Below the pieces are notes generated by a model. It worked only from the letters and a program-made list of their open reading frames with translations, searched no databases and was not told the DNA's origin. From positions 1 through 35,452 of IMG/VR virus record IMGVR_UViG_3300043570_001468: a DNA stretch of 35,452 nt, one strand, 5' to 3'. Position 1 is the stretch's first letter. Every line of letters starts with the position of its first letter. Origin of the DNA: a virus. Below are positions 5,536 to 34,415 of the stretch, one piece after another. The translations under genes were made by a program, and so were the position numbers.

Positions 5536-6132
5536 ATGATAGACATAATTAAATATGGTGAATTCAAACCTGTTGGAAAACAAAAAAAGAAACACCAAAT
5601 AATACTTACACACACATCAAGAAACATCAACGACTATCTTCAGTCGTTGAAGTTTCGTTTTAACGGGGGTTTTAAAAGAATTCCTAACTACATTATTACC
5701 CGGGAGGGTAAAATTATACAATTATTGGGAAACACCGAACACTCGGAATACTTCAAAGACCCCAATATAAATCGTAATTCAATTATCATATCATTAGAAA
5801 ATTTAGGGTGGTTACAAAAAGAACCACTAACTGACCATTACATTAACTGGATTGGGGATATTTATAAGGGTAGCGTGTTTGAAAAAAAGTGGAGAGATTA
5901 CTTTTTTTGGCAACCATATACTGAAACTCAAGTTGATAATCTTGGGTTATTATGTAAGGAATTGTTTGAAAGTGTAAAGATTAAATCACAAATTGTTGAA
6001 CATAACACAAAAATAAGCGGGATTGAAAAATATTGTGGGATTGTAACTAAAAGTAATTTTGGTGTTGATTATACCGATGTTAGTCCGGCATTTAAATTTA
6101 ATGAACTTTTAAAAAAAATAGAAAATGAATAA
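5536..6132 (+). CDS. N-acetylmuramoyl-L-alanine amidase-like protein (probable endolysin)
   Basis: The 198-residue protein follows the amidase_2 / T7-lysozyme pattern. It has an early strand ending in His (IILTHTSR, His26), a YIITREGKIIQLL hairpin, an ISLENLGWL strand, a second His in VEHNTK (His156) and a final TDVSPAF segment (Asp181). The usual last ligand pattern (His or Cys plus DPG) is altered, so zinc binding by His26, His156 and Asp181 is a guess. No signal peptide is present, consistent with a cytoplasmic endolysin released by a holin or a virion-borne enzyme. It follows the membrane genes and overlaps the next gene by 8 bases. The fold call is fairly good; activity is uncertain. Confidence 0.75.
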   Translation: MIDIIKYGEFKPVGKQKKKHQIILTHTSRNINDYLQSLKFRFNGGFKRIPNYIITREGKIIQLLGNTEHSEYFKDPNINRNSIIISLENLGWLQKEPLTDHYINWIGDIYKGSVFEKKWRDYFFWQPYTETQVDNLGLLCKELFESVKIKSQIVEHNTKISGIEKYCGIVTKSNFGVDYTDVSPAFKFNELLKKIENE

Positions 6133-6742
6133 TTCACACGACGAAATTAAACAATTATTAAATGTTTCTCGAAGATTATTGGGGGATAATAATGTAAATG
6201 AAGATATCCGTAGACAATATGGGTTATTGACAGAACAGGGTGTTGATTTGACAGATAATAATGTTACATCAAAAGTTAATGTGACTAAATCTGTTGAGGA
6301 CAAAATTGATTATGATACCGCTGATACTGAAGAAGAACTTGAATCTGAGGATGATAAAAAGCAAGCGTATAGAATTTCCGGTGGATTATTGGTTTTACAC
6401 GGAAAAGAACAAACAGATTTAGAGTTAACGACAGATGAGAAGATAGCGTTTCAAGAAACAATGGATGAGTTTGTTTCTAACGTTTCTGATATGGTTGATT
6501 TTAATAAATTAAACGTATATTCCAATAATGTTGAATGGTCCGGGAAACTTATTGAATTTGATATTGAATTTTTCTTTTCGATAGGTGAAGAAAATGGTGT
6601 TTACATCAATGGAGAAATGTTAAACGCTGATAATGAATTCATCGCGTTAATTACTAAATTAAAAACTTATTACGAGAAATTCAAATCAAAATGGGCGGCT
6701 GTATTATCATCAAGAAAGAAAACAATTAAAACTGAAGAATAA
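6125..6742 (+). CDS. Probable late/virion protein with prohead-type leader, function unknown
   Basis: This 205-residue acidic protein opens with a charged helix followed by EDIRRQYGLLTEQG (about residues 28-41). That segment closely matches the leader DIRSRYGLVNEQ of the peptidoglycan-binding protein at 26616. The LTE just before Gln is a candidate T4-type prohead protease cut (aliphatic-x-Glu). The mature domain contains an ISGGLLVLHGKE strand and an EFDIEFFFSIGEENGVYINGE region, likely beta-rich, with no known motif. It overlaps the amidase gene by 8 bases and the next gene by one. Unlike most leader-bearing genes here, it has no ATATTTATAA box. Confidence 0.75.
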   Translation: MNNSHDEIKQLLNVSRRLLGDNNVNEDIRRQYGLLTEQGVDLTDNNVTSKVNVTKSVEDKIDYDTADTEEELESEDDKKQAYRISGGLLVLHGKEQTDLELTTDEKIAFQETMDEFVSNVSDMVDFNKLNVYSNNVEWSGKLIEFDIEFFFSIGEENGVYINGEMLNADNEFIALITKLKTYYEKFKSKWAAVLSSRKKTIKTEE

Positions 6743-7706: not shown

Positions 7707-8465
7707 ATGAGACTAAAAGAAAGTATTGGGACTGATTTGAAAAGCGCTATGTCAACTGAAATGGGAAAATTGTCTACAATTACTAGTGGTGGTATTGATG
7801 CGGCGGTTGCAGCTAACGAATTTAAAAATGAAATCCCGGAAAATAATAATAAAATAATTAAAAAACCAATGAAAAAGGTTGATATCGGCAAATTAGTGGG
7901 TAAGAGTAAACTTAAAACACCAACAGGTAAATTAACAATGGGACTACCAATAATGGGTGAAGATAGTGAAACATCTGAATCTACCGGTTCAGGTTCCGCA
8001 GGAGGGTTTGAGGCTCCATTATTCTCTGAAACTAAACAAGAGATGCAAGAAAAATGTTGGACAGGTTTTGAACAAAAGGGTATGAAAAAGAAAGGTACAC
8101 GAATGGTCCCTAATTGTGTAAGAGAAGGTGACGAGGGTGATATTAAAAAAGTTGAGGCTACTGAATCAACAGGTTCAGGTTCTTCCGGTTCTTATGAAAC
8201 TACCGCCGCTTGGGCTAAATCTCAAAGTAAAAAAGATTGGAGAGGAAAGTCTAAGACACAAATACCCGGAGGAAAGTTTGTTCAAGTTAAAAAGAAATGT
8301 CAAAAATTTCCATATTGTAATCAAGGAGATATTAAAGCTCTAAAAATATTTGAAAATGAAAAGGTTAAGAAAGCTATTCAAAATATTAGTGAGAGACATA
8401 ATATAAGTGAGAATGTTATTAAAACAATTATCGCTTATGAGTATGAAAATACCTTTTCAAAGTAA
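7707..8465 (+). CDS. Probable virion/head-associated protein with STGSGS spacers and Cys motifs
   Basis: The 252-residue protein is low in hydrophobic residues and modular. A Lys-rich N-terminal part is followed by a first unit (ESTGSGSAGGFEAPLFSE, then CWTGFEQKGMKKKGTRMVPNC) and a second (ESTGSGSSGSYETTAAWAK, then VQVKKKCQKFPYCNQGD). A helical C-terminus ends in AYEYENTFSK. The CWxGFxxKGxKxKGxRMVPNC pattern recurs in structural and prohead-region proteins of marine phages, as I remember them. Paired cysteines spaced like this could bind metal. The gly/ser linkers and tandem plan suggest a virion decoration or scaffold-related protein; the exact role is unknown. Confidence 0.75.
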   Translation: MRLKESIGTDLKSAMSTEMGKLSTITSGGIDAAVAANEFKNEIPENNNKIIKKPMKKVDIGKLVGKSKLKTPTGKLTMGLPIMGEDSETSESTGSGSAGGFEAPLFSETKQEMQEKCWTGFEQKGMKKKGTRMVPNCVREGDEGDIKKVEATESTGSGSSGSYETTAAWAKSQSKKDWRGKSKTQIPGGKFVQVKKKCQKFPYCNQGDIKALKIFENEKVKKAIQNISERHNISENVIKTIIAYEYENTFSK

Positions 8466-8504: not shown

Positions 8505-9821
8505 ATGAAAAAATTAAATACAACTTATTTAGATAATTTAGTGTCTAAAATTTTAAAAGAAACTTTAGAAGAAAAGGCGGACACTCTTGTTTCAAAGATT
8601 AAAGGTGACGTTTGCGAATGTGGGGGTCAAATGTATGAAGGTGAATGTAATGAATGTGGTGGTATGTATGAGGATATGAGTGAAGGAATTTACGATGTTG
8701 ATAACACATTAGATGATGAGTTTGATTATGTTGGAGAAAGTGAAGACTTTGTTGGTGATGAAGAAAACACTGACGAAGATAGAGAAAAAACTTGTAGATA
8801 CCATATTGAAAATTTTGGTAAAGAAGACCCTGTTACTAAAGAAATGTGTCAAGGTATTAATATTACCGAGGCATTAAAAGGTCGTCAAAGAAAATTGGAT
8901 AAAAACAAAAACAATAAGATTGATGCTGAAGACTTTGAAATGTTAAGAAATAAATCAAAAAATAGTAAAGCCATTAAAAGAATTAACAAAATTTCTACAA
9001 CACACGGAATGGAAGAACAAGAAACGGAAGAAGGTAATGCTTTCTCAGGAGCGTTATCTAACGCTAAAAAAAGTGGTAAAGATTCTTTTGAAGTAGATGG
9101 TAAAAAATATCCGGTTAAAGAATCGTATAGATTGACTGAAAATGAAATGGTTGGGTTAATTGAGAAAATTGTGTTAGAACAAAAAAATAAAGAAGTTAAA
9201 GACCCTGCGGAAAAAAATAACATTAAAGGTTTTGGAGGTTCTCCAAGAGGATTAGAGGTTTATAAAAAAGCTCACAATGGTTCCGGAAAGGAAAATGATG
9301 ATAACATTAAAGCGGTTACCAAAAAAATGAAAGATTATCTTAAAGATGGTTCTAAAGGTGATTATGAAATGAACCCTAAAATGTTTCCTAAAGGAAATGG
9401 TGAAATAGAAAAGATGAAGAAAAAGGCTTATACTATGTCAGATGCGGGTCAAGAATTTATTGATGATTTTATGAGTCCTGGTATGGAAAATTTAGACTAT
9501 GACCAAATAGAACCGAATGAAGAACAAATAACTAATAACATTGAAGGTTCTTCTAAAACAGGTAATAACTCTGAATGGGGTAATGCTGTTGAAACAGATG
9601 TTAACAAAAAGATTAATGCCAAACGTAAAGCTAATAAATTTGCTAAAGTAAGAAATATGGCTTATCAAAAATCTGCTCAACCTATTAAAGATGCGACAGG
9701 TGAGGATAGTGGTAAAGGTATTAACCTTAAATTGGAATCTACTGAAAAGAAAACAAAACAAATCAACGAAGAGTTTGACAGAATGAAATCGTTAATTAGT
9801 TACGACCGAAAAACACAATAA
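8505..9821 (+). CDS. Leader-bearing virion-type protein with Cys4 and EF-hand-like motifs
   Basis: This 438-residue, very hydrophilic protein starts with a helical leader (KLNTTYLDNLVSKILKET; LKE at 17-19 is a possible cleavage site). A possible zinc site follows at Cys37, 39, 48 and 51. Next come an acidic region, an EF-hand-like calcium loop at residues 132-143 (DKNKNNKIDAED) and a second leader-like segment at 208-226 (YRLTENEMVGLIEKIVLEQ). The C-terminal half is Lys/Asn/Gly-rich and ends KQINEEFDRMKSLISYDRK, again like the leaders. Two internal leaders suggest proteolytic maturation into pieces, as for prohead core proteins. The gene has its own candidate late box and is followed by a terminator. 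No enzyme motif is visible. Confidence 0.8.
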   Translation: MKKLNTTYLDNLVSKILKETLEEKADTLVSKIKGDVCECGGQMYEGECNECGGMYEDMSEGIYDVDNTLDDEFDYVGESEDFVGDEENTDEDREKTCRYHIENFGKEDPVTKEMCQGINITEALKGRQRKLDKNKNNKIDAEDFEMLRNKSKNSKAIKRINKISTTHGMEEQETEEGNAFSGALSNAKKSGKDSFEVDGKKYPVKESYRLTENEMVGLIEKIVLEQKNKEVKDPAEKNNIKGFGGSPRGLEVYKKAHNGSGKENDDNIKAVTKKMKDYLKDGSKGDYEMNPKMFPKGNGEIEKMKKKAYTMSDAGQEFIDDFMSPGMENLDYDQIEPNEEQITNNIEGSSKTGNNSEWGNAVETDVNKKINAKRKANKFAKVRNMAYQKSAQPIKDATGEDSGKGINLKLESTEKKTKQINEEFDRMKSLISYDRKTQ

Positions 9822-14402: not shown

Positions 14403-14410
14403 TATTTATA
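14403..14410 (+). promoter_or_regulatory. Candidate phage late promoter box (ATATTTATAA type)
   Basis: TATTTATA within ATATTTATAATAAAAAC lies 14 bases before the ATG at 14425. A TTTG at 14376-14379 is 21 bases upstream of the box, so partial use by host-type sigma cannot be excluded here. Confidence 0.5.
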
Positions 14411-14424
14411 ATAAAAACAATTAA

Positions 14425-15822
14425 ATGAAGATTATCCAAGTACTTTCAAATTTAATAACTGAAGACGCTCGTTTTCAGGTATTTTATAATAAATATATAC
14501 TACCTAGTGGTGATAGAAAAAAAGGATTACTTCCTTTTGAAATTGTTAAGCAAATAGTTTTTGCTGACCCAACAACAAGAGTTCCGGTTAACTATGACAA
14601 AAATGGTGCGTCCGTTGAAGATATGTTAAGTAATCAAATTAAGGTTGGGAAATATAGTCAATGGATGTTAAATATGTTTATTAAACCACATTTAACTAAT
14701 GACAATAATGATGTTATAGAAGTTAATACTGACGAATATAAATCAAAGGCAAATCAATATAGAAAACTTTTTTTAGAAGATTTACATTACTTTACTGAAT
14801 TACTAACAAAATTTGAAAGATTCAAAGGTAGTTTAGTAGATGCGTCTAAGAAAGATATTAATAATGTTAAATCTATTAACGAATTATCTCAATTACAAGT
14901 TGAGTATGGTGATACAACAGTTGATTTGGCTGTGTATCGTGGTAAAAAAGTTAAAAACGAAAAAGGTGCTGACGTTAAAACAAACTTTAATTTTCCCGGT
15001 GCGGAAATATTAAAGGTTGGTTCAGAATATACCTTGATTAGAATTTCTGATAAAGGTGACTTAGGTTCTAAGGCGGCTTCTTATTTTGGAGGTTACGAAG
15101 GAGGATTAGCAAGAGGTGAGTCTAATTGGTGTACGGCAGCAACAGGTTCTGACCACTCACATAGATATAGACAAAAAGGTCCATTATATATTATTATGGC
15201 TAATGACGATAAAGGTAAAGTAGGTGAGGTAACAGGATTACCTACAGAAAGATATCAACTTCACTTTCCAGCACCGAGTCAATTTAAATCTCGTGACCAA
15301 TATTCTGCTGAGGGTAATGTCCCAATTGTTGAATTTTTAAATGGTAAATGGAGTGAATTTAAAGAAATATTGAAACCTGAATTTGCTAAAGGGTTTGTTA
15401 CACCAAATAGTGAAAACGTTAACATTAGATATCCATCTGATGAAACAGGTAGATTTGTTGCGTTATATGGGTTTGAAGAATTATTTGAGGCGTTACCGGA
15501 CACGATTAAAAAATTAAATATTGTTAACACTTCAAATGAAAACATTAGTGTAGCACTTCCTAAGTCAATTGTTAGGTTTAAATCGTTAGTGGCGGTGATG
15601 TTTCAGAATATGATTAGTTCAATTCCTGATAACATCTGTGAGTTGAAGAACTTGACGTTATTGGCTTTCCCTGATAATAAAGAATTAAAATCAGTTCCGG
15701 ATTGCATACTGTCATTAAAAAACTTTACATTTTTAAATGTAAACGGATGTCCTAATGTTCAAGTACCAAAAGAATTGGAAAAATATAATGAAGGTAATGG
15801 TTATTACCATATGGAAGAATAG
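14425..15822 (+). CDS. Leader-bearing WCTA-domain / leucine-rich-repeat protein, copy 1
   Basis: This 465-residue protein begins MKIIQVLSNLITEDARFQ; ITE at about residues 11-13 is a candidate prohead-protease site. A helical region with a conserved LPSGDRKKGLLPFE follows. The central domain has NWCTAA (Cys236), GPLYIIMANDDKGKV and RYQLHF (His280); Cys and His are kept in the neighbouring copy, so a Cys-dependent activity is conceivable. The last 110 residues form short leucine-rich repeats (LPDTIKKLNIVN, IPDNICELKNLTLLAF, VPDCILSLKNFTFLNV) ending in YHMEE. I recall WCTA..YQFHF domains in other marine phages without known function. I infer a packaged, possibly injected protein with LRR-mediated binding. 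Confidence 0.85.
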   Translation: MKIIQVLSNLITEDARFQVFYNKYILPSGDRKKGLLPFEIVKQIVFADPTTRVPVNYDKNGASVEDMLSNQIKVGKYSQWMLNMFIKPHLTNDNNDVIEVNTDEYKSKANQYRKLFLEDLHYFTELLTKFERFKGSLVDASKKDINNVKSINELSQLQVEYGDTTVDLAVYRGKKVKNEKGADVKTNFNFPGAEILKVGSEYTLIRISDKGDLGSKAASYFGGYEGGLARGESNWCTAATGSDHSHRYRQKGPLYIIMANDDKGKVGEVTGLPTERYQLHFPAPSQFKSRDQYSAEGNVPIVEFLNGKWSEFKEILKPEFAKGFVTPNSENVNIRYPSDETGRFVALYGFEELFEALPDTIKKLNIVNTSNENISVALPKSIVRFKSLVAVMFQNMISSIPDNICELKNLTLLAFPDNKELKSVPDCILSLKNFTFLNVNGCPNVQVPKELEKYNEGNGYYHMEE

Positions 15823-15832
15823 ATAAAGAAAA

Positions 15833-15840
15833 TATTTATA
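15833..15840 (+). promoter_or_regulatory. Candidate phage late promoter box (ATATTTATAA type)
   Basis: TATTTATA within ATATTTATAACAAAAAAAC lies 17 bases before the ATG at 15858, in the 35-base gap between the paralogues. No TTTG precedes it at -33 distance. Confidence 0.5.
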
Positions 15841-15857
15841 ACAAAAAAACAATTAAA

Positions 15858-17249
15858 ATGAAGATTACAAAAGTATTATCGAACTTAGTTACTGAAGACG
15901 CTCGTTTTCAAATTTTATACAAAAAATATGTGTTACCTAGTGGTGATAGAAAAAAAGGTTTACTACCATTTGAGGTTGTTAAACAAATTGTTTTCGCTGA
16001 CCCAACAACGAGAGTTCCTGAGAACTACGATAAGGAAGGTGCGTCTATTGAGGATATGACAAGTGACAAAATTAAAGTTGGTAAATATACCCAATGGTTG
16101 TTGAATCTATTTGTTAAACCATACATAACTAGAGAAGGTTCTAATGAACCAATTGAGGTTGGGACTGATGAGTATAAATCAAAGGCGACTGAATACAGAC
16201 GACTTTTCTTAGAAGATTTATCTCAATTCACTGAATTATTAGTGAAATATGATAGATTTAAAGGTAGTTTAGAGGATGCCGCTAAAAAAGACATTAACAA
16301 TGTTAAATCACTTAATGATTTATCTCACTTGAAAGTTAAAGTGGGTGATGAAACGGTTGATTTAAATATGTATCGTGGTAAAAAAATTAAGAAAGAAGAA
16401 GGTGTTGCTGCTAACACAAACTTTAATATTCCCGGAGCTGAAATTTTAAAAGTTGGTTCTGAATACACACTAATTAAAATTGCTGACAAAGGTGCTTTAG
16501 GTTCTAAAGCGGCATCTTATTTCGGTGGTTATAGTGGAGGACTTGATAGAGGTGAAACTAACTGGTGTACGGCAGCAGAAAATTCAAGTTATTCAAACAC
16601 TTACAGACAACAAGGTCCATTATATATCTTTATTGCTAATGATGATAAAGGTAAGGTTGGTCAAGTTACGGGGTTACCATCAGAAAGATATCAATTCCAC
16701 TTCCCATCTAACCAATTTAAATTTGCTAACCAACACGGTGGTAACATTCCGGTTGTTGAGTATTTGAATGGTAAATGGTCTGAGTTTAAAGAAATATTCA
16801 AACCTGAGTTTGCGGCTGGATTTGTTAAACCAAATTCTGATAATGTTGAAATTAAATACCCGGACTCTGCTACAGGTAAGTTCGTGGCTTTATACGGATT
16901 TGATGAATTATTTACATCATTACCTATAACAATTAAAAGATTGAACATTATTAACACTTCAACAGAAAGTGTTACAATTGATGTTCCTGAGTCAATCAGT
17001 AGATTCCAATCATTAACAGCAATATTGTTTGAGAATATGATTAGTAAACTTCCAAACTCAATCTGTGAATTAAAGAACTTGGTGTTTATCGCTGTTCCGG
17101 GTAACAAAGAATTGAAAACAATTCCGGAATGTATTATGAATTTACCAAACCTTACATTTGTGAATGTAAGTAGATGTCCTAATGTTCAAGTGCCAAAAGC
17201 GTTAGAACAATACAATACGGGTGAAGGTTTCTACCATATGGAAGAATAA
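15858..17249 (+). CDS. Leader-bearing WCTA-domain / leucine-rich-repeat protein, copy 2
   Basis: This 463-residue protein is the tandem paralogue of the gene before it, colinear along its length and about 80% identical over the first 60 residues by eye. The leader is MKITKVLSNLVTEDARFQ. The central domain keeps NWCTAA (Cys237), GPLYIFIANDDKGKV and RYQFHF (His281). The C-terminal leucine-rich repeats and the YHMEE end are also kept. Divergence is concentrated around residues 120-135, just after the WCTA motif, and in the LRR surface, as expected for two paralogues with different partners. It carries its own late-type box, so the duplication included the regulatory region. Function as for copy 1 is unknown. 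Confidence 0.85.
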   Translation: MKITKVLSNLVTEDARFQILYKKYVLPSGDRKKGLLPFEVVKQIVFADPTTRVPENYDKEGASIEDMTSDKIKVGKYTQWLLNLFVKPYITREGSNEPIEVGTDEYKSKATEYRRLFLEDLSQFTELLVKYDRFKGSLEDAAKKDINNVKSLNDLSHLKVKVGDETVDLNMYRGKKIKKEEGVAANTNFNIPGAEILKVGSEYTLIKIADKGALGSKAASYFGGYSGGLDRGETNWCTAAENSSYSNTYRQQGPLYIFIANDDKGKVGQVTGLPSERYQFHFPSNQFKFANQHGGNIPVVEYLNGKWSEFKEIFKPEFAAGFVKPNSDNVEIKYPDSATGKFVALYGFDELFTSLPITIKRLNIINTSTESVTIDVPESISRFQSLTAILFENMISKLPNSICELKNLVFIAVPGNKELKTIPECIMNLPNLTFVNVSRCPNVQVPKALEQYNTGEGFYHMEE

Positions 17250-17608: not shown

Positions 17609-19372
17609 ATGAAAGAAGAATTATTTAATTATACCGTAAAGAAATATCAAGTATCGGAATACTTGGATACCAATCCTATTCGACCTCTTAAAAAAGAGGT
17701 TCAGGATGATTTTTGGGGGGTAATTGAAACTACTATGAGTTCAACTAAAAACTCAAGTTATACGCCTTGGGGTGACTTTACTTTTAAGGAGGATTATGAT
17801 ACAGAAGAAAAATTTGTAGAACATTACGGGAACCCACTTACTTCATTATATTTGAATAGGGTGATTATCTGTGTGACTAAAGAGAATGATAAAGTTTCCT
17901 TTAAGATATTCAATTACAGTAAAACAAGACGTGTTGCGGGTAAATGGTTTAAATTAAGAACTAATTGTAGGTTCATTACTTTTAACTATAAAACAAATGC
18001 GTTATATACCGGTTCATTAGATAATTACCATTTGAAGAGAAAATGTCGTAAAAATATTAGAAGAGTCCTTTTTAATAATGACCCTATCAATAATATGAGA
18101 CGATATTTGAGAGAGTCATTCAACTCAATAGTTGATAAAGATAAAGTTGATATCCCAACAATAGTTAATCAGGTTATCTCAACCTTTGTTAACGCCATTC
18201 CCGGAACTGAACTATACTCTGATTTACTTCCTGAACAAAGAATCTATAAAAGATATTTGGACGTTCAAGGAATTAAAGTCCCAAACAATTGGTTTGAGCT
18301 TATGAATGTTTATCCCCAACCAAAGAAGAAAGATTTGGTGAAGTGTGAGTATAAGTATATTGATGCTCTAATGAGGGTTCATAATTTAAAGGGGGATAAA
18401 GTTAAAAGGGTATTACATAACGTTAAATCATTTGAGGGTGTAAATAATTTAACCAATGCTTGTTCAATATTTGGAGATAAGTTTATTTTAAATCAACCGG
18501 ACGAGTTTGTTCAATTGTTACTGGAGAAGTCTCAACCCGGATTTCATAATAATATTGGAAAAGGATTGTTAACCAAAAAAGAATTCTCTAATTTCTTTGA
18601 AATATATAAATTATTTCAAAAAGGATTAGTTAATAATAATGTGATTGAAGACCACTTTAGATTTTATCGTTTATTGGACGAAATGGAACCGGTTAAATGG
18701 ACTTCAAGGACTCACGATGAGTTTGTTCAAGAACATTATGATTGGTCGGAAAAATATAACCATTACACAAACGGAGATTTCAATAGAATTTACAACCGAG
18801 GGTTTGTAGATAAAATAAATGAGGTTATCTTAACCAAAGATGGTCCATATTTCCCGGAGGTGTTAACAACATCCAAACGATATAACAACGAGTCGTTCTT
18901 CCAAAACAATTGTGTTAAGACATATGTTAAACGTGTGGGTTCTGTGTTGATATCACTAAGACGTGGTGAGGGAGAAACTGAAGAAAGAGCGTCAATTGAA
19001 ATTGAAGTAACTCCGCTTGTGTGGCTGGATGAAATGTATTTTAATTTAAGACGAGTTCAAACCTTGGGAAAACGTAACAGTAGGTTAGATAATAGTTGGG
19101 ATGATGTTTTGGGTAAATTAGATGATAGAATTGAATATATTGTTCGTGAGAAATTGTTTGATACATTACAGATTGATGGTGAATTTGGGGGGAGAAAAAT
19201 TTTCTCAGATTACGAAATTAAAGAGTATGACAGAACCGGATACAATACGGGTGTAACAAATATCAAAAAAGGTGTTTATTTAGGGTGGAAAAACGATTCA
19301 ATTATGAAATTAAATTCATATAATTATAATGTTGTTCCGATAGAGAATGATGAAAACTTATTTGATTATTAA
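17609..19372 (+). CDS. PcfJ-like protein
   Basis: The 587-residue protein begins MKEELFNYTVKKYQ. The C-terminal third holds the PcfJ-type signature: FFQNNCVKTYVKRVGSVLIS (Cys435), then LRRGEGETEERASIEIEV, then LRRVQTLGKRN. In PcfJ-family proteins a C-V-x-x-Y core is followed by a basic strand and an Ile/Leu-Glu-Ile strand. The family is named from a conjugative plasmid gene and occurs in many phages, with no established biochemistry. The start was chosen because the promoter's -7 element covers the only upstream alternative. The N-terminal 400 residues are basic and helical. It overlaps no upstream gene and is followed directly by a short hypothetical. Confidence 0.7.
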   Translation: MKEELFNYTVKKYQVSEYLDTNPIRPLKKEVQDDFWGVIETTMSSTKNSSYTPWGDFTFKEDYDTEEKFVEHYGNPLTSLYLNRVIICVTKENDKVSFKIFNYSKTRRVAGKWFKLRTNCRFITFNYKTNALYTGSLDNYHLKRKCRKNIRRVLFNNDPINNMRRYLRESFNSIVDKDKVDIPTIVNQVISTFVNAIPGTELYSDLLPEQRIYKRYLDVQGIKVPNNWFELMNVYPQPKKKDLVKCEYKYIDALMRVHNLKGDKVKRVLHNVKSFEGVNNLTNACSIFGDKFILNQPDEFVQLLLEKSQPGFHNNIGKGLLTKKEFSNFFEIYKLFQKGLVNNNVIEDHFRFYRLLDEMEPVKWTSRTHDEFVQEHYDWSEKYNHYTNGDFNRIYNRGFVDKINEVILTKDGPYFPEVLTTSKRYNNESFFQNNCVKTYVKRVGSVLISLRRGEGETEERASIEIEVTPLVWLDEMYFNLRRVQTLGKRNSRLDNSWDDVLGKLDDRIEYIVREKLFDTLQIDGEFGGRKIFSDYEIKEYDRTGYNTGVTNIKKGVYLGWKNDSIMKLNSYNYNVVPIENDENLFDY

Positions 19373-22072: not shown

Positions 22073-23440
22073 ATGAGAAGAAAATTGAGACTTACGGAAT
22101 CCGAATTATATAAAGTTATTAAACGAATCGTTGAGCAAACTGAGGATGAATATTATAAAATATCTCCTGAGGAATACTTGAATATAATGAAATATGCTAG
22201 TAATAATGGTAATATATTCAGAAAAATGAAACAATATGGTGGAAAACCATTATATGTTACGGGAGATTTAAATTTAAGTGGTACGAATGTTAAAGATATT
22301 GGACCGATTGCTTATGTCGATGGTAAATTGGATATTAGTCAAACTAATGTGTCTAATATTGGTGATTTAAAGGCTAAATCATATATTAGTGATTACGGTT
22401 CTCCTCGTGAAAGAATTAGAGATAGACAAGAACTTTTGGGTAAAAAGGCTGAGATGGATTCTAAAAGGGAAGATGATGAGTGGAACTTTCAAAATCAAGA
22501 TGATGATGGGTTGAAAGCTATGGCTTTATTAGAATGGCTTGAGGGTAATGGTGATATTAAAGTATTGGATGATAGTCAAAAAGAAGAGTTAAGAATATTA
22601 ACTCAACAATTAGATGAGCTTAATGCTCGCTATGATGATGAAGATAGAGATGGCGACCCAGATGAGAATGTTGAAATATTAAATCAAATTGAGGAGGTTG
22701 AAGAAAAAGTTGGTGAATTAACCGAAGATGTTGCGGATATATATGATATATACCCAACAGGGTATGAACATTATGGTTTAACCACATTTGAAGTTTTAGT
22801 GGGTGGATTTAAAGATAGGTCATATAGTGTTGGTATTGAAGAAGAAATGGAAAAAGCGGCATTAGAATATGCGGAATCAATAATAGATGAGAACGGAGTT
22901 CAAGGATTCAGACAAGAATTTCTTCAGAATTATTTAGATGAAAATGCGATTATTGAATTTGCTAGAGAAGATTATGAATACACAGTTAGGGATAGTCCTG
23001 ATAGTTACTTTAATGATAATGATTTTGAATTGACTCCGGAGCAAGAAGAAAGAATATCTCAAATTGAATCACAAATTGAAGATTTAGAAGAACAACAAAA
23101 AGAATTAGATTCTGACGATGAGAATTATTATGATTATGAAGAAGATATACAAAATCAAATTGACGCTCTTCAAGAAGAATTAGATAATATTGAGGTTGAT
23201 ACTGAACCAACAGAAGATATGATAGATAATAAGGTTGAGGAATTGGTTCGATACGTTAAAAGAGACCCATTAGATTATCTAATTGAATATGGAATGGAAA
23301 TTAAAGAATTTGTTGATACTGATGCTTTGGCTCAAGGATTAGTTGATGCTGATGGTTGGGGTATGATAAGTAGTTACGATGGTAATTATGATAGTGTTAA
23401 TATCGCCGGTGAGACATATTACGTAATGAGAATTAGTTAA
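22073..23440 (+). CDS. Leader-bearing solenoid/coiled-coil protein (probable virion protein)
   Basis: This 455-residue, strongly acidic protein starts with the leader RKLRLTESELYKVIKRIVEQ (IVE then Gln is a candidate cut). Residues 58-100 form LRR-like short repeats (YVTGDLNLSGTNVKDIG, then YVDGKLDISQTNVSNIG). Charged regions with strong coiled-coil patterns follow (ILTQQLDELNARYDDED; ISQIESQIEDLEEQQKELDS), with Asp/Glu-rich linkers between. The C-terminus (VNIAGETYYVMRIS) is a compact strand. The upstream TTTTG and TATCTTAG at 22045-22057 are imperfect promoter elements, and a TATTTATT lies 3 bases before the ATG. It probably acts as a packaged scaffold or internal protein; the function is unknown. 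Confidence 0.8.
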   Translation: MRRKLRLTESELYKVIKRIVEQTEDEYYKISPEEYLNIMKYASNNGNIFRKMKQYGGKPLYVTGDLNLSGTNVKDIGPIAYVDGKLDISQTNVSNIGDLKAKSYISDYGSPRERIRDRQELLGKKAEMDSKREDDEWNFQNQDDDGLKAMALLEWLEGNGDIKVLDDSQKEELRILTQQLDELNARYDDEDRDGDPDENVEILNQIEEVEEKVGELTEDVADIYDIYPTGYEHYGLTTFEVLVGGFKDRSYSVGIEEEMEKAALEYAESIIDENGVQGFRQEFLQNYLDENAIIEFAREDYEYTVRDSPDSYFNDNDFELTPEQEERISQIESQIEDLEEQQKELDSDDENYYDYEEDIQNQIDALQEELDNIEVDTEPTEDMIDNKVEELVRYVKRDPLDYLIEYGMEIKEFVDTDALAQGLVDADGWGMISSYDGNYDSVNIAGETYYVMRIS

Positions 23441-26615: not shown

Positions 26616-26975
26616 ATGTCAAAAAGATTTATAATTTCAGAAGATGAAAAAAGAGATATCCGTTCAAGATACGGATTGGTTAATGAACAAAATGAAAGTC
26701 CTGAACTTAAAAAGGGGATTCAATGTTTTCTTAATAAAAAAGGGTTTAGAGACGATAAGAATCAACCATTAAAGATTGATGGGTTATTAGCTGGTAAAAC
26801 AGCAGCGGCTTTAAGTAAATATCAATCTAAGATTGGTGTGTCTCCGGCTGATGGTGTTTGGGGTCCAATGACTCAAAATAAAATGCCGGATAGTGACGTT
26901 CAAATTTTTAAACAATGTGTTTCTGATGAAGGTAGTTTTATCGATAAAGGGTTACATATGTTTGGATTAGATTAA
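26616..26975 (+). CDS. Leader-bearing peptidoglycan-binding protein
   Basis: This 119-residue protein starts KRFIISEDEKRDIRSRYGLV and then NEQ; the DIRSRYGLVNEQ segment matches EDIRRQYGLLTEQ of the protein at 6125. VNE then Gln is a candidate processing site at about residue 24. The rest is a PG_binding_1-type helical repeat (LKIDGLLAGKTAAALSKYQS, then VSPADGVWGPMTQNKM), which binds cell-wall peptidoglycan. No hydrolase domain is attached, so it could be a processed virion component that holds the wall or helps entry. It is transcribed alone from a late-type box and converges on a reverse-strand DUF192 gene with a 4-base overlap. Confidence 0.8.
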   Translation: MSKRFIISEDEKRDIRSRYGLVNEQNESPELKKGIQCFLNKKGFRDDKNQPLKIDGLLAGKTAAALSKYQSKIGVSPADGVWGPMTQNKMPDSDVQIFKQCVSDEGSFIDKGLHMFGLD

Positions 26976-33986: not shown

Positions 33987-34037
33987 TTCTCGCAAAACAG
34001 GATGGTGGAGTCGCCGACTTTATGTCGGCCCAAAATT
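33987..34037 (+). ncRNA. Structured intergenic RNA element (not a tRNA)
   Basis: The region between the previous stop and the terminator has a perfect GCCGAC-TTTAT-GTCGGC hairpin (34013-34029). A second, competing pairing uses GTCG (34010-34013) with CGAC (34015-34018). A GTTTT/AAAAC pairing (33977-33981 with 33994-33998) could also form. It is GC-rich against an AT-rich background. Possible roles are an attenuator, a processed 3' end or a small RNA; no riboswitch class was recognised. Confidence 0.35.
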
Positions 34038-34063
34038 AACCCTCACTTTGGTGGGGGTTTTTT
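34038..34063 (+). terminator. Rho-independent terminator
   Basis: AACCCTCAC (34038-34046) pairs with GTGGGGGTT (34051-34059), with one T-G pair, around a TTTG loop and a following T run. It closes the early-type operon just before the late-type box at 34075. Confidence 0.85.
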
Positions 34064-34074
34064 ATTTTATATGA

Positions 34075-34082
34075 TATTTATA
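34075..34082 (+). promoter_or_regulatory. Candidate phage late promoter box (ATATTTATAA type)
   Basis: TATTTATA in GATATTTATAAATAAACTG lies 12 bases before the ATG at 34095 and after a terminator. The overlapping TATAAATA (34079-34086) is the T4 late promoter core in the standard orientation, so the true polarity of this motif is ambiguous here. Confidence 0.55.
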
Positions 34083-34094
34083 AATAAACTGAAG

Positions 34095-34415
34095 ATGAAG
34101 GATATTATATTAACAGAAAAACAACTTGAAAAGTTGGTTACCAAAATGAAAACCATTAAAGAAGATGAAGGTAAAGGTTCATATATGGCAAAACAACAGA
34201 TGTATGTAATTGCTAAGATGGCTGAGAAGATGTGGGAAAAAATGGAAGAAGATGAAAATTGTCAGTTAGACGATTGGATGGAAAGCAAAATAGCTCAAGC
34301 TGAACAAAGTATTTCATCTGTGGTTAAAGCATTTATGTATGATGATTTAAAAGATAATGAAGAAATTGGGGGAATGAATAAACTAGGGTTTGACGACCTG
34401 ATAATAGGTAAATAA
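34095..34415 (+). CDS. Leader-bearing virion-type protein (106 aa)
   Basis: This protein starts MKDIILTEKQLEKLVTKMKT, then IKED: IKE then Asp is a candidate processing site. The mature part is helical (MAKQQMYVIAKMAEKMWEKM; DDWMESKIAQAEQSISSVVK). I recall the WMESKIAQAEQSI pattern from several uncultured phages, where it occurs near structural genes. ATG 34095 is chosen because an upstream frame would cross the terminator and the box. It is two bases before the ferritin-like gene and the two are probably co-transcribed. Confidence 0.75.
   Translation: MKDIILTEKQLEKLVTKMKTIKEDEGKGSYMAKQQMYVIAKMAEKMWEKMEEDENCQLDDWMESKIAQAEQSISSVVKAFMYDDLKDNEEIGGMNKLGFDDLIIGK

Follow-up and report, generated by a model that had tools for sequence, protein, structure and literature searches.

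Tandem WCT-domain leucine-rich-repeat proteins as candidate packaged head proteins of a jumbo phage

A viral stretch of 35,452 nucleotides (IMG/VR record IMGVR_UViG_3300043570_001468; hereafter the window) carries two adjacent, similar genes whose products end in leucine-rich repeats (LRRs), raising the question of whether these proteins travel in the virus head and act in the host. ORF A (14425–15822, 465 aa) and ORF B (15858–17249, 463 aa) have exact coordinates and lie on the same plus strand, separated by a gap of 35 nt. Both were identified as WCT-LRR proteins from their reading frames, from a pairwise alignment in which 327 of 466 positions are identical (70%), and from alignment (A) or comparison (B) with the family. 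Each protein runs from a leader through a helical N-terminal part and a WCT domain to four SHOC2-like leucine-rich repeats; a YQ[LF]HF strand is found in both. The sequence-only reading had described two colinear paralogues with a leader, a WCT/YQxHF domain and C-terminal LRRs; all of these parts were recovered, and the genes are a real tandem pair. The same pair, with an identical A, is present in the 272-kb contig L001 (genome G001), which was taken to be the same phage species as the window. The downstream neighbour (17609–19372, plus strand) is PcfJ-like by motif (QxNCVxxY...SxR...Q...N) and is treated here only as a conserved neighbourhood member; it carries the motifs QSNCVKxY...SLIISLR...ERATIEY...RVQTLGRFN, follows the WCT-LRR gene on its 3′ side at almost every locus and had no match in Pfam or PHROG. 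A relationship between the WCT domain and this neighbour, whose motifs look similar by eye, was rejected (hhalign probability of 0.1% or less).

The LRRs occupy about residues 346–465 of ORF A (15460–15819, plus strand; from Pfam, AF2, Foldseek and reading of the repeats) and about residues 344–463 of ORF B (16887–17246, plus strand; from Pfam and the alignment). The Pfam LRR_14 matches are weak and below the curated cut-off of that family (5e-5 and 1.5e-5 for the two ORFs). The AF2 model of whole A (mean pLDDT 84, LRR >90) ends in a C-terminal LRR solenoid, and a Foldseek search of the PDB with whole A matched LRR proteins and no others. Four LRR-like repeats of the LxxLxLxxN type start at residues 357, 378, 400 and 424. 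With tandem repeats and an LRR fold both found, the proteins belong among the leucine-rich repeat proteins.

At the other end of ORF A, the leader MKIIQVLSNLITE (14425–14463, plus strand) is a predicted capsid-targeting propeptide with a putative cut after E13, as judged from conservation and low pLDDT; AF2 gave residues 1–11 a pLDDT <50, followed by a helix. The leader of ORF B, MKITKVLSNLVTE (15858–15896, plus strand), was read from its sequence, and in both proteins DARF follows directly (MKIIQVLSNLITE-DARF and MKITKVLSNLVTE-DARF). The L-I-T-E motif of A matches the T4-type L/I-x-E criterion, whereas the V-T-E of B is a V-x-E variant, a conservative departure from the strict motif. In T4, gp21 cleaves at L/I-X-E, and in IPIII a stretch of 10 residues at the N-terminus is enough for capsid targeting (PMC9026906); in the T4 record, Alt starts MELITE-LFDE and gp24 starts MAKINELLRE-S. 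E13 and R16 are invariant in an alignment of 37 nonredundant full-length family members. Across a broader set of divergent WCT proteins, [LI]xE with its Glu at residues 6–30 occurs in 75 of 80 nonredundant leaders, compared with 23% of internal windows of the same proteins; these leaders are related by descent, so the 75 are not independent events, and the automatic starts in two loci (L016 and L017) were placed upstream of the likely start. The annotated start of the homologue in phage PA5oct gives MKLFEVFTLYE-DKAE.

Each gene also has its own late-type box, as the sequence-only reading had noted. The box TATTTATAA lies at 14403–14411 (plus strand), 22 nt before the start codon of A, and at 15833–15841 (plus strand; upstream-region scan), 25 nt before that of B, and it also precedes structural genes in G001. 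The form TATTTATA is enriched genome-wide in G001, where it was found in 48 of 332 upstream regions (8.6 expected; a maximum of 17 in 200 Markov simulations), and the genes behind it include those for the portal, prohead protease, scaffold-like and tail-tube proteins as well as both WCT-LRR genes. This excess and the position of the box before such genes indicate a genuine late-gene box. Its genome-wide association with leaders is weak (30/49 versus 128/283, p 0.04) and disappears for the short leader (p 0.53); the box is therefore a marker of late genes rather than of cargo.

Similar-looking leaders occur elsewhere. In the window, the ORFs at 22073–23440, 26616–26975, 34002–34415, 6125–6742 and 8505–9821 carry RLTESELYKVIKRIVEQ, SEDEKRDIRSRYGLVNEQ, ILTEKQLEKLVTKMKTIKE, RRQYGLLTEQ and LVSKILKE, respectively, and three of the five have a TATTTATAA box just upstream. 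In G001, 21 ORFs start with M[KRD][IVLF]..[IVL][TKS]E (MKIIITES-type; 0.05 expected by chance). These ORFs (L184–L198; for example at 90376, 198224, 219016–220353, 234059–235400, 240068 and 267601) are almost never alike beyond the leader; their shared start is a modular N-terminal tag and may be a short capsid-targeting sequence.

An S77 prohead protease was found in 19 of 29 records with WCT proteins (7 of the 10 large records with WCT-LRR proteins and 12 of the other 19), with all matches above the family cut-off; the misses are possibly fragments, except for Caulobacter phage CcrBL9, whose genome is complete and encodes a WCT protein but gave no S77 match. The G001 protease matches PF03420 with an E value of 5e-25 and lies in a head cluster ordered portal, protease, scaffold-like protein (no PHROG match) and major head protein. 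The major head protein contains SFLINE-ATGEG at residue 60, which by eye resembles SFLTE-AEIGG at residue 65 of T4 gp23. A motif, E[AS]TG.GS.G.[FY]E, follows this predicted cleavage site (SFLINE-ATGEGSNGSFET) and recurs twice in the window ORF at 7707–8465 and at the start of a further ORF of G001 (loci: window 7707–8465; L185:12137–14008; L185:16526–17755).

In PA5oct, the distant WCT homologue EST35_0205 carries the annotation of a structural protein, based on ESI-MS/MS of virions. The same MS-annotated list includes ribonucleotide reductase and thymidylate synthase; such soluble enzymes make contamination possible, and the detection of EST35_0205 therefore counts as support and not as proof. 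As a general predictor of virion proteins, [LI]xE was rejected in PA5oct, where it occurs in 15 of 75 MS-positive and 28 of 102 hand-picked MS-negative proteins, although its carriers include the head precursor (MSNRLFE-S), the annotated prohead scaffold (MARQLYE-Y) and the WCT protein. Since the bare motif does not discriminate, it is given weight here only together with family conservation. Both this result and the possible contaminants would suit an account in which the leader is simply a conserved N-terminal helix and the proteins, never packaged, act late inside the infected cell. We regard that account as unlikely: [LI]xE persists across very divergent WCT proteins, AF2 has low confidence at residues 1–11, and a homologue was detected in virions. 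The earlier claim that A and B are packaged is well supported, if not proven, by the [L/I]xE leaders, the S77 proteases, the late boxes and the PA5oct homologue, and we consider it quite probable that both are carried in the virus head.

The WCT domain spans about residues 185–300 of ORF A (14977–15324, plus strand; delimited by AF2 of residues 175–330) and about residues 186–298 of ORF B (16413–16751, plus strand; from sequence). The isolated region of A (residues 175–330) was modelled with a pLDDT of 88.8 and a pTM of 0.85. Foldseek found no PDB match to the isolated domain better than E 0.15, the best hit of a PDB profile search had an E value of 0.18, and Pfam contains no family for the domain and returned one stray Agglutinin match. 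Cys236 is invariant in the 37 full-length members, which were recruited without any WCT search pattern, and the invariant positions include, besides E13 and R16, W235, C236, T237, Q278 and H280. The family scan was seeded around residues 75–84, and the initial search patterns also lacked WCT, so the conservation of WCT in the WCT-LRR subfamily is not a search artefact; the pattern for the wider set did contain WCT, and its invariance there is partly due to selection. His280 is conserved in the subfamily but not in the wider family, with W, S, Q, Y or F in its place in 7 of 72 readable members. The proposed conserved Cys and His thus stood for Cys236, and for His280 within the subfamily alone.

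The further proposal of a Cys-dependent or ADP-ribosyltransferase domain fared worse. A T4 Alt-type ADP-ribosyltransferase was rejected, with no ADP-ribosyltransferase match in Pfam and no PDB fold match for either the whole protein or the isolated domain. So was a papain-like, NlpC or transglutaminase Cys hydrolase, with no fold match and with the invariant Cys paired with a His that is replaced in the 7 members above. These results place the WCT domain outside the known Cys-hydrolase and ADP-ribosyltransferase folds, and it may have a new activity or a new enzyme fold. A Cys-dependent enzyme built on Cys236 and His280 would be compatible with packaging and could draw on the invariance of W-C-T, including in members recruited without that pattern, and on the high conservation of His280 and Gln278; since neither fold nor profile searches matched any enzyme and His280 is replaced as described, we consider it improbable.

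In viral contigs, the protein by itself retrieved 15 loci and an alignment 78; the 37 aligned sequences come from contigs of up to 322 kb. A search with only the WCT domain added 80 more loci. The WCT-LRR family is common in uncultured jumbo phages, usually in single copy. WCT members also occur in cultured phages, namely CcrBL9, Salicola phage SCTP-2 and P. aeruginosa jumbo phages that include PA5oct, MIJ3 and Paride. PHROG 17056 and 28193, both without assigned function, match 30 of 32 WCT-domain sequences, whereas A and B themselves match only PHROG 6688, within the LRR part. Two scans seeded on patterns, covering the genomes of 84,980 bacterial and archaeal species, returned no prokaryotic relatives; within the limits of such scans, which depend on a short conserved stretch and may overlook distant copies, the domain seems to be confined to viruses. 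Foldseek of A against a viral library matched PA5oct (E 9e-8), CcrBL9 and two proteins of Marseillevirus LCMAC202, suggesting that the domain may also occur in viruses of eukaryotes. The two LCMAC202 matches (BFVD A0A481Z016 and A0A481YZT2; E 1.4e-7 and 9.6e-7) include one annotated as an ankyrin-repeat protein. A literature search found no paper that deals with the WCT domain or with LRR proteins carried as cargo in phage heads. Divergent WCT proteins stand in tandem arrays in L122 (2199–7574), L200 (SCTP-2), L099, L107, L128, L131 and L135, with four WCT ORFs each in the L122 and SCTP-2 arrays.

Copy number varies among phages, as a check proposed in the sequence-only reading brought out: most loci have one gene, whereas two are present in the window clade, in L090 (an independent pair) and in L014 (a strongly divergent pair), and L025 has only a B-like copy. 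Between A and B, identity falls to 0.39 at residues 283–300, 0.53 just after WCT, 0.62 in the linker (157–193) and 0.63 in the LRR, and is 0.73–0.86 elsewhere. The suggestion that divergence concentrates after WCT and in the LRRs therefore holds for this pair. As a family rule it was ruled out by L007 and L011, whose LRRs are 100% identical while their N-terminal parts share 61%. This pair (L007 8001–9392; L011 8001–9365) is a mosaic in which the DNA of the leader and LRR is about 97% identical, the middle ranges from 0.40 to 0.82 in 60-nt windows and the aligned flanks share 74% to 89%. The reverse pattern was found between L067/L091 and L097 (N-terminal part 72%, LRR 39%). Such module exchange is expected of cargo that faces variable hosts, an indirect argument.

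These patterns also bear on whether the proteins are effectors at all. They could be head proteins that are processed but serve in structure or assembly, in the prohead core, in DNA condensation or in scaffolding, with the LRR contacting other head proteins. The evidence for packaging serves this possibility equally well, the gene is widely conserved and mostly single-copy in its clade, and in Paride the WCT gene adjoins the large terminase gene. The variable copy number, the module exchange and the much greater divergence of the L007/L011 middle than of its flanks would be unusual for a lattice component, however, and the WCT-LRR gene is far from the head cluster in G001; we hold a structural role to be a distinctly weaker candidate than delivery into the host. 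The LRRs could instead bind a cell surface as part of a tail fibre or adhesin, since LRRs can be adhesive and the PDB matches include internalin types. No result pointed to a tail fibre: Pfam and PHROG gave no fibre domain, the genes lie outside the G001 structural clusters, and a prohead-protease-type leader is a feature of heads, which makes this placement very improbable.

The reading that we favour, by a modest degree over even chances, is that A and B are late, protease-processed internal head proteins that are ejected into the host and use the LRR as a binding module; the injected host-targeting factor of the sequence-only reading, like the cleavage, ejection, host target and WCT activity assumed here, is inferred. 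They would be expressed late by a jumbo phage with a T4-like head, its host probably being a member of the Bacteroidota. The first 13 residues would serve as the capsid-targeting propeptide and carry the protein into the core of the prohead, where the S77 protease would cut after [L/I/V]-x-E. The mature protein would stay with the packaged DNA and be ejected at infection, and in the host the LRR, probably together with the WCT and N-terminal parts, would attach to a molecule or defence factor of the host. Through tandem duplication, loss and module exchange, the genes may track host variation.

A more speculative extension, to which we give rather little weight, is that WCT proteins belong to a much broader cargo system. 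Jumbo phages of this group would tag dozens of otherwise unrelated proteins at the N-terminus with short sequences that end in [I/L]-[T/K]-E (MKIIITE-S, MRAREFLIE-Y and LITE-type leaders), package them through a T4-type prohead core and deliver them as a bolus; the WCT domain would be a fold specific to viruses that interacts with the host and is combined with interchangeable targeting modules at the C-terminus. If delivery of A and B into the host is correct, the packaging logic of T4 would extend to a large family that is apparently limited to viruses and whose fold has no match in the PDB. As the family spans uncultured jumbo phages and the culturable P. aeruginosa phages PA5oct, MIJ3 and Paride, injected cargo would be testable in the laboratory, and the leader and domain signature would offer a route to candidate injected proteins in metagenomic phages.

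Among known systems, IPI–IPIII and Alt of T4 share with the WCT-LRR proteins a short N-terminal leader ending in [L/I]-x-E, an S77-type protease in the genome and late expression. Of the few internal proteins that T4 packages in this manner, two are known to act on the host: Alt modifies RNA polymerase, and IPI inhibits a type IV restriction enzyme (PMC9026906). The mature T4 proteins showed no relation to the WCT-LRR proteins in sequence or fold; the latter are about 52 kDa with a predicted binding module, and would be ejected by analogy. The earlier likening to Alt is thus reasonable for packaging and processing, given the start of Alt, but does not extend to an ADP-ribosyltransferase fold or profile. 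PA5oct EST35_0205 and Paride gp0002 share a homologous WCT domain and N-terminal part, the leader MKLFEVFTLYE and an S77 protease, and differ in having no detected LRR, an unrelated C-terminal part and about 25% identity. In phiKZ and SPN3US, too, many head ejection proteins lie inside the head and are cleaved after Glu by a prohead protease of the phage; their propeptides end at S/A-x-E sites and often exceed 100 residues (PMC5694885, PMC9026906), whereas WCT leaders use L/I-x-E after about 9–20 residues. Bacterial and SHOC2-like LRR proteins (Pfam LRR_14; 4tzh, 7sd1) share the LRR fold of the C-terminal 120 residues; in A and B only four such repeats are present, fused to a leader, a helical part and the WCT domain.
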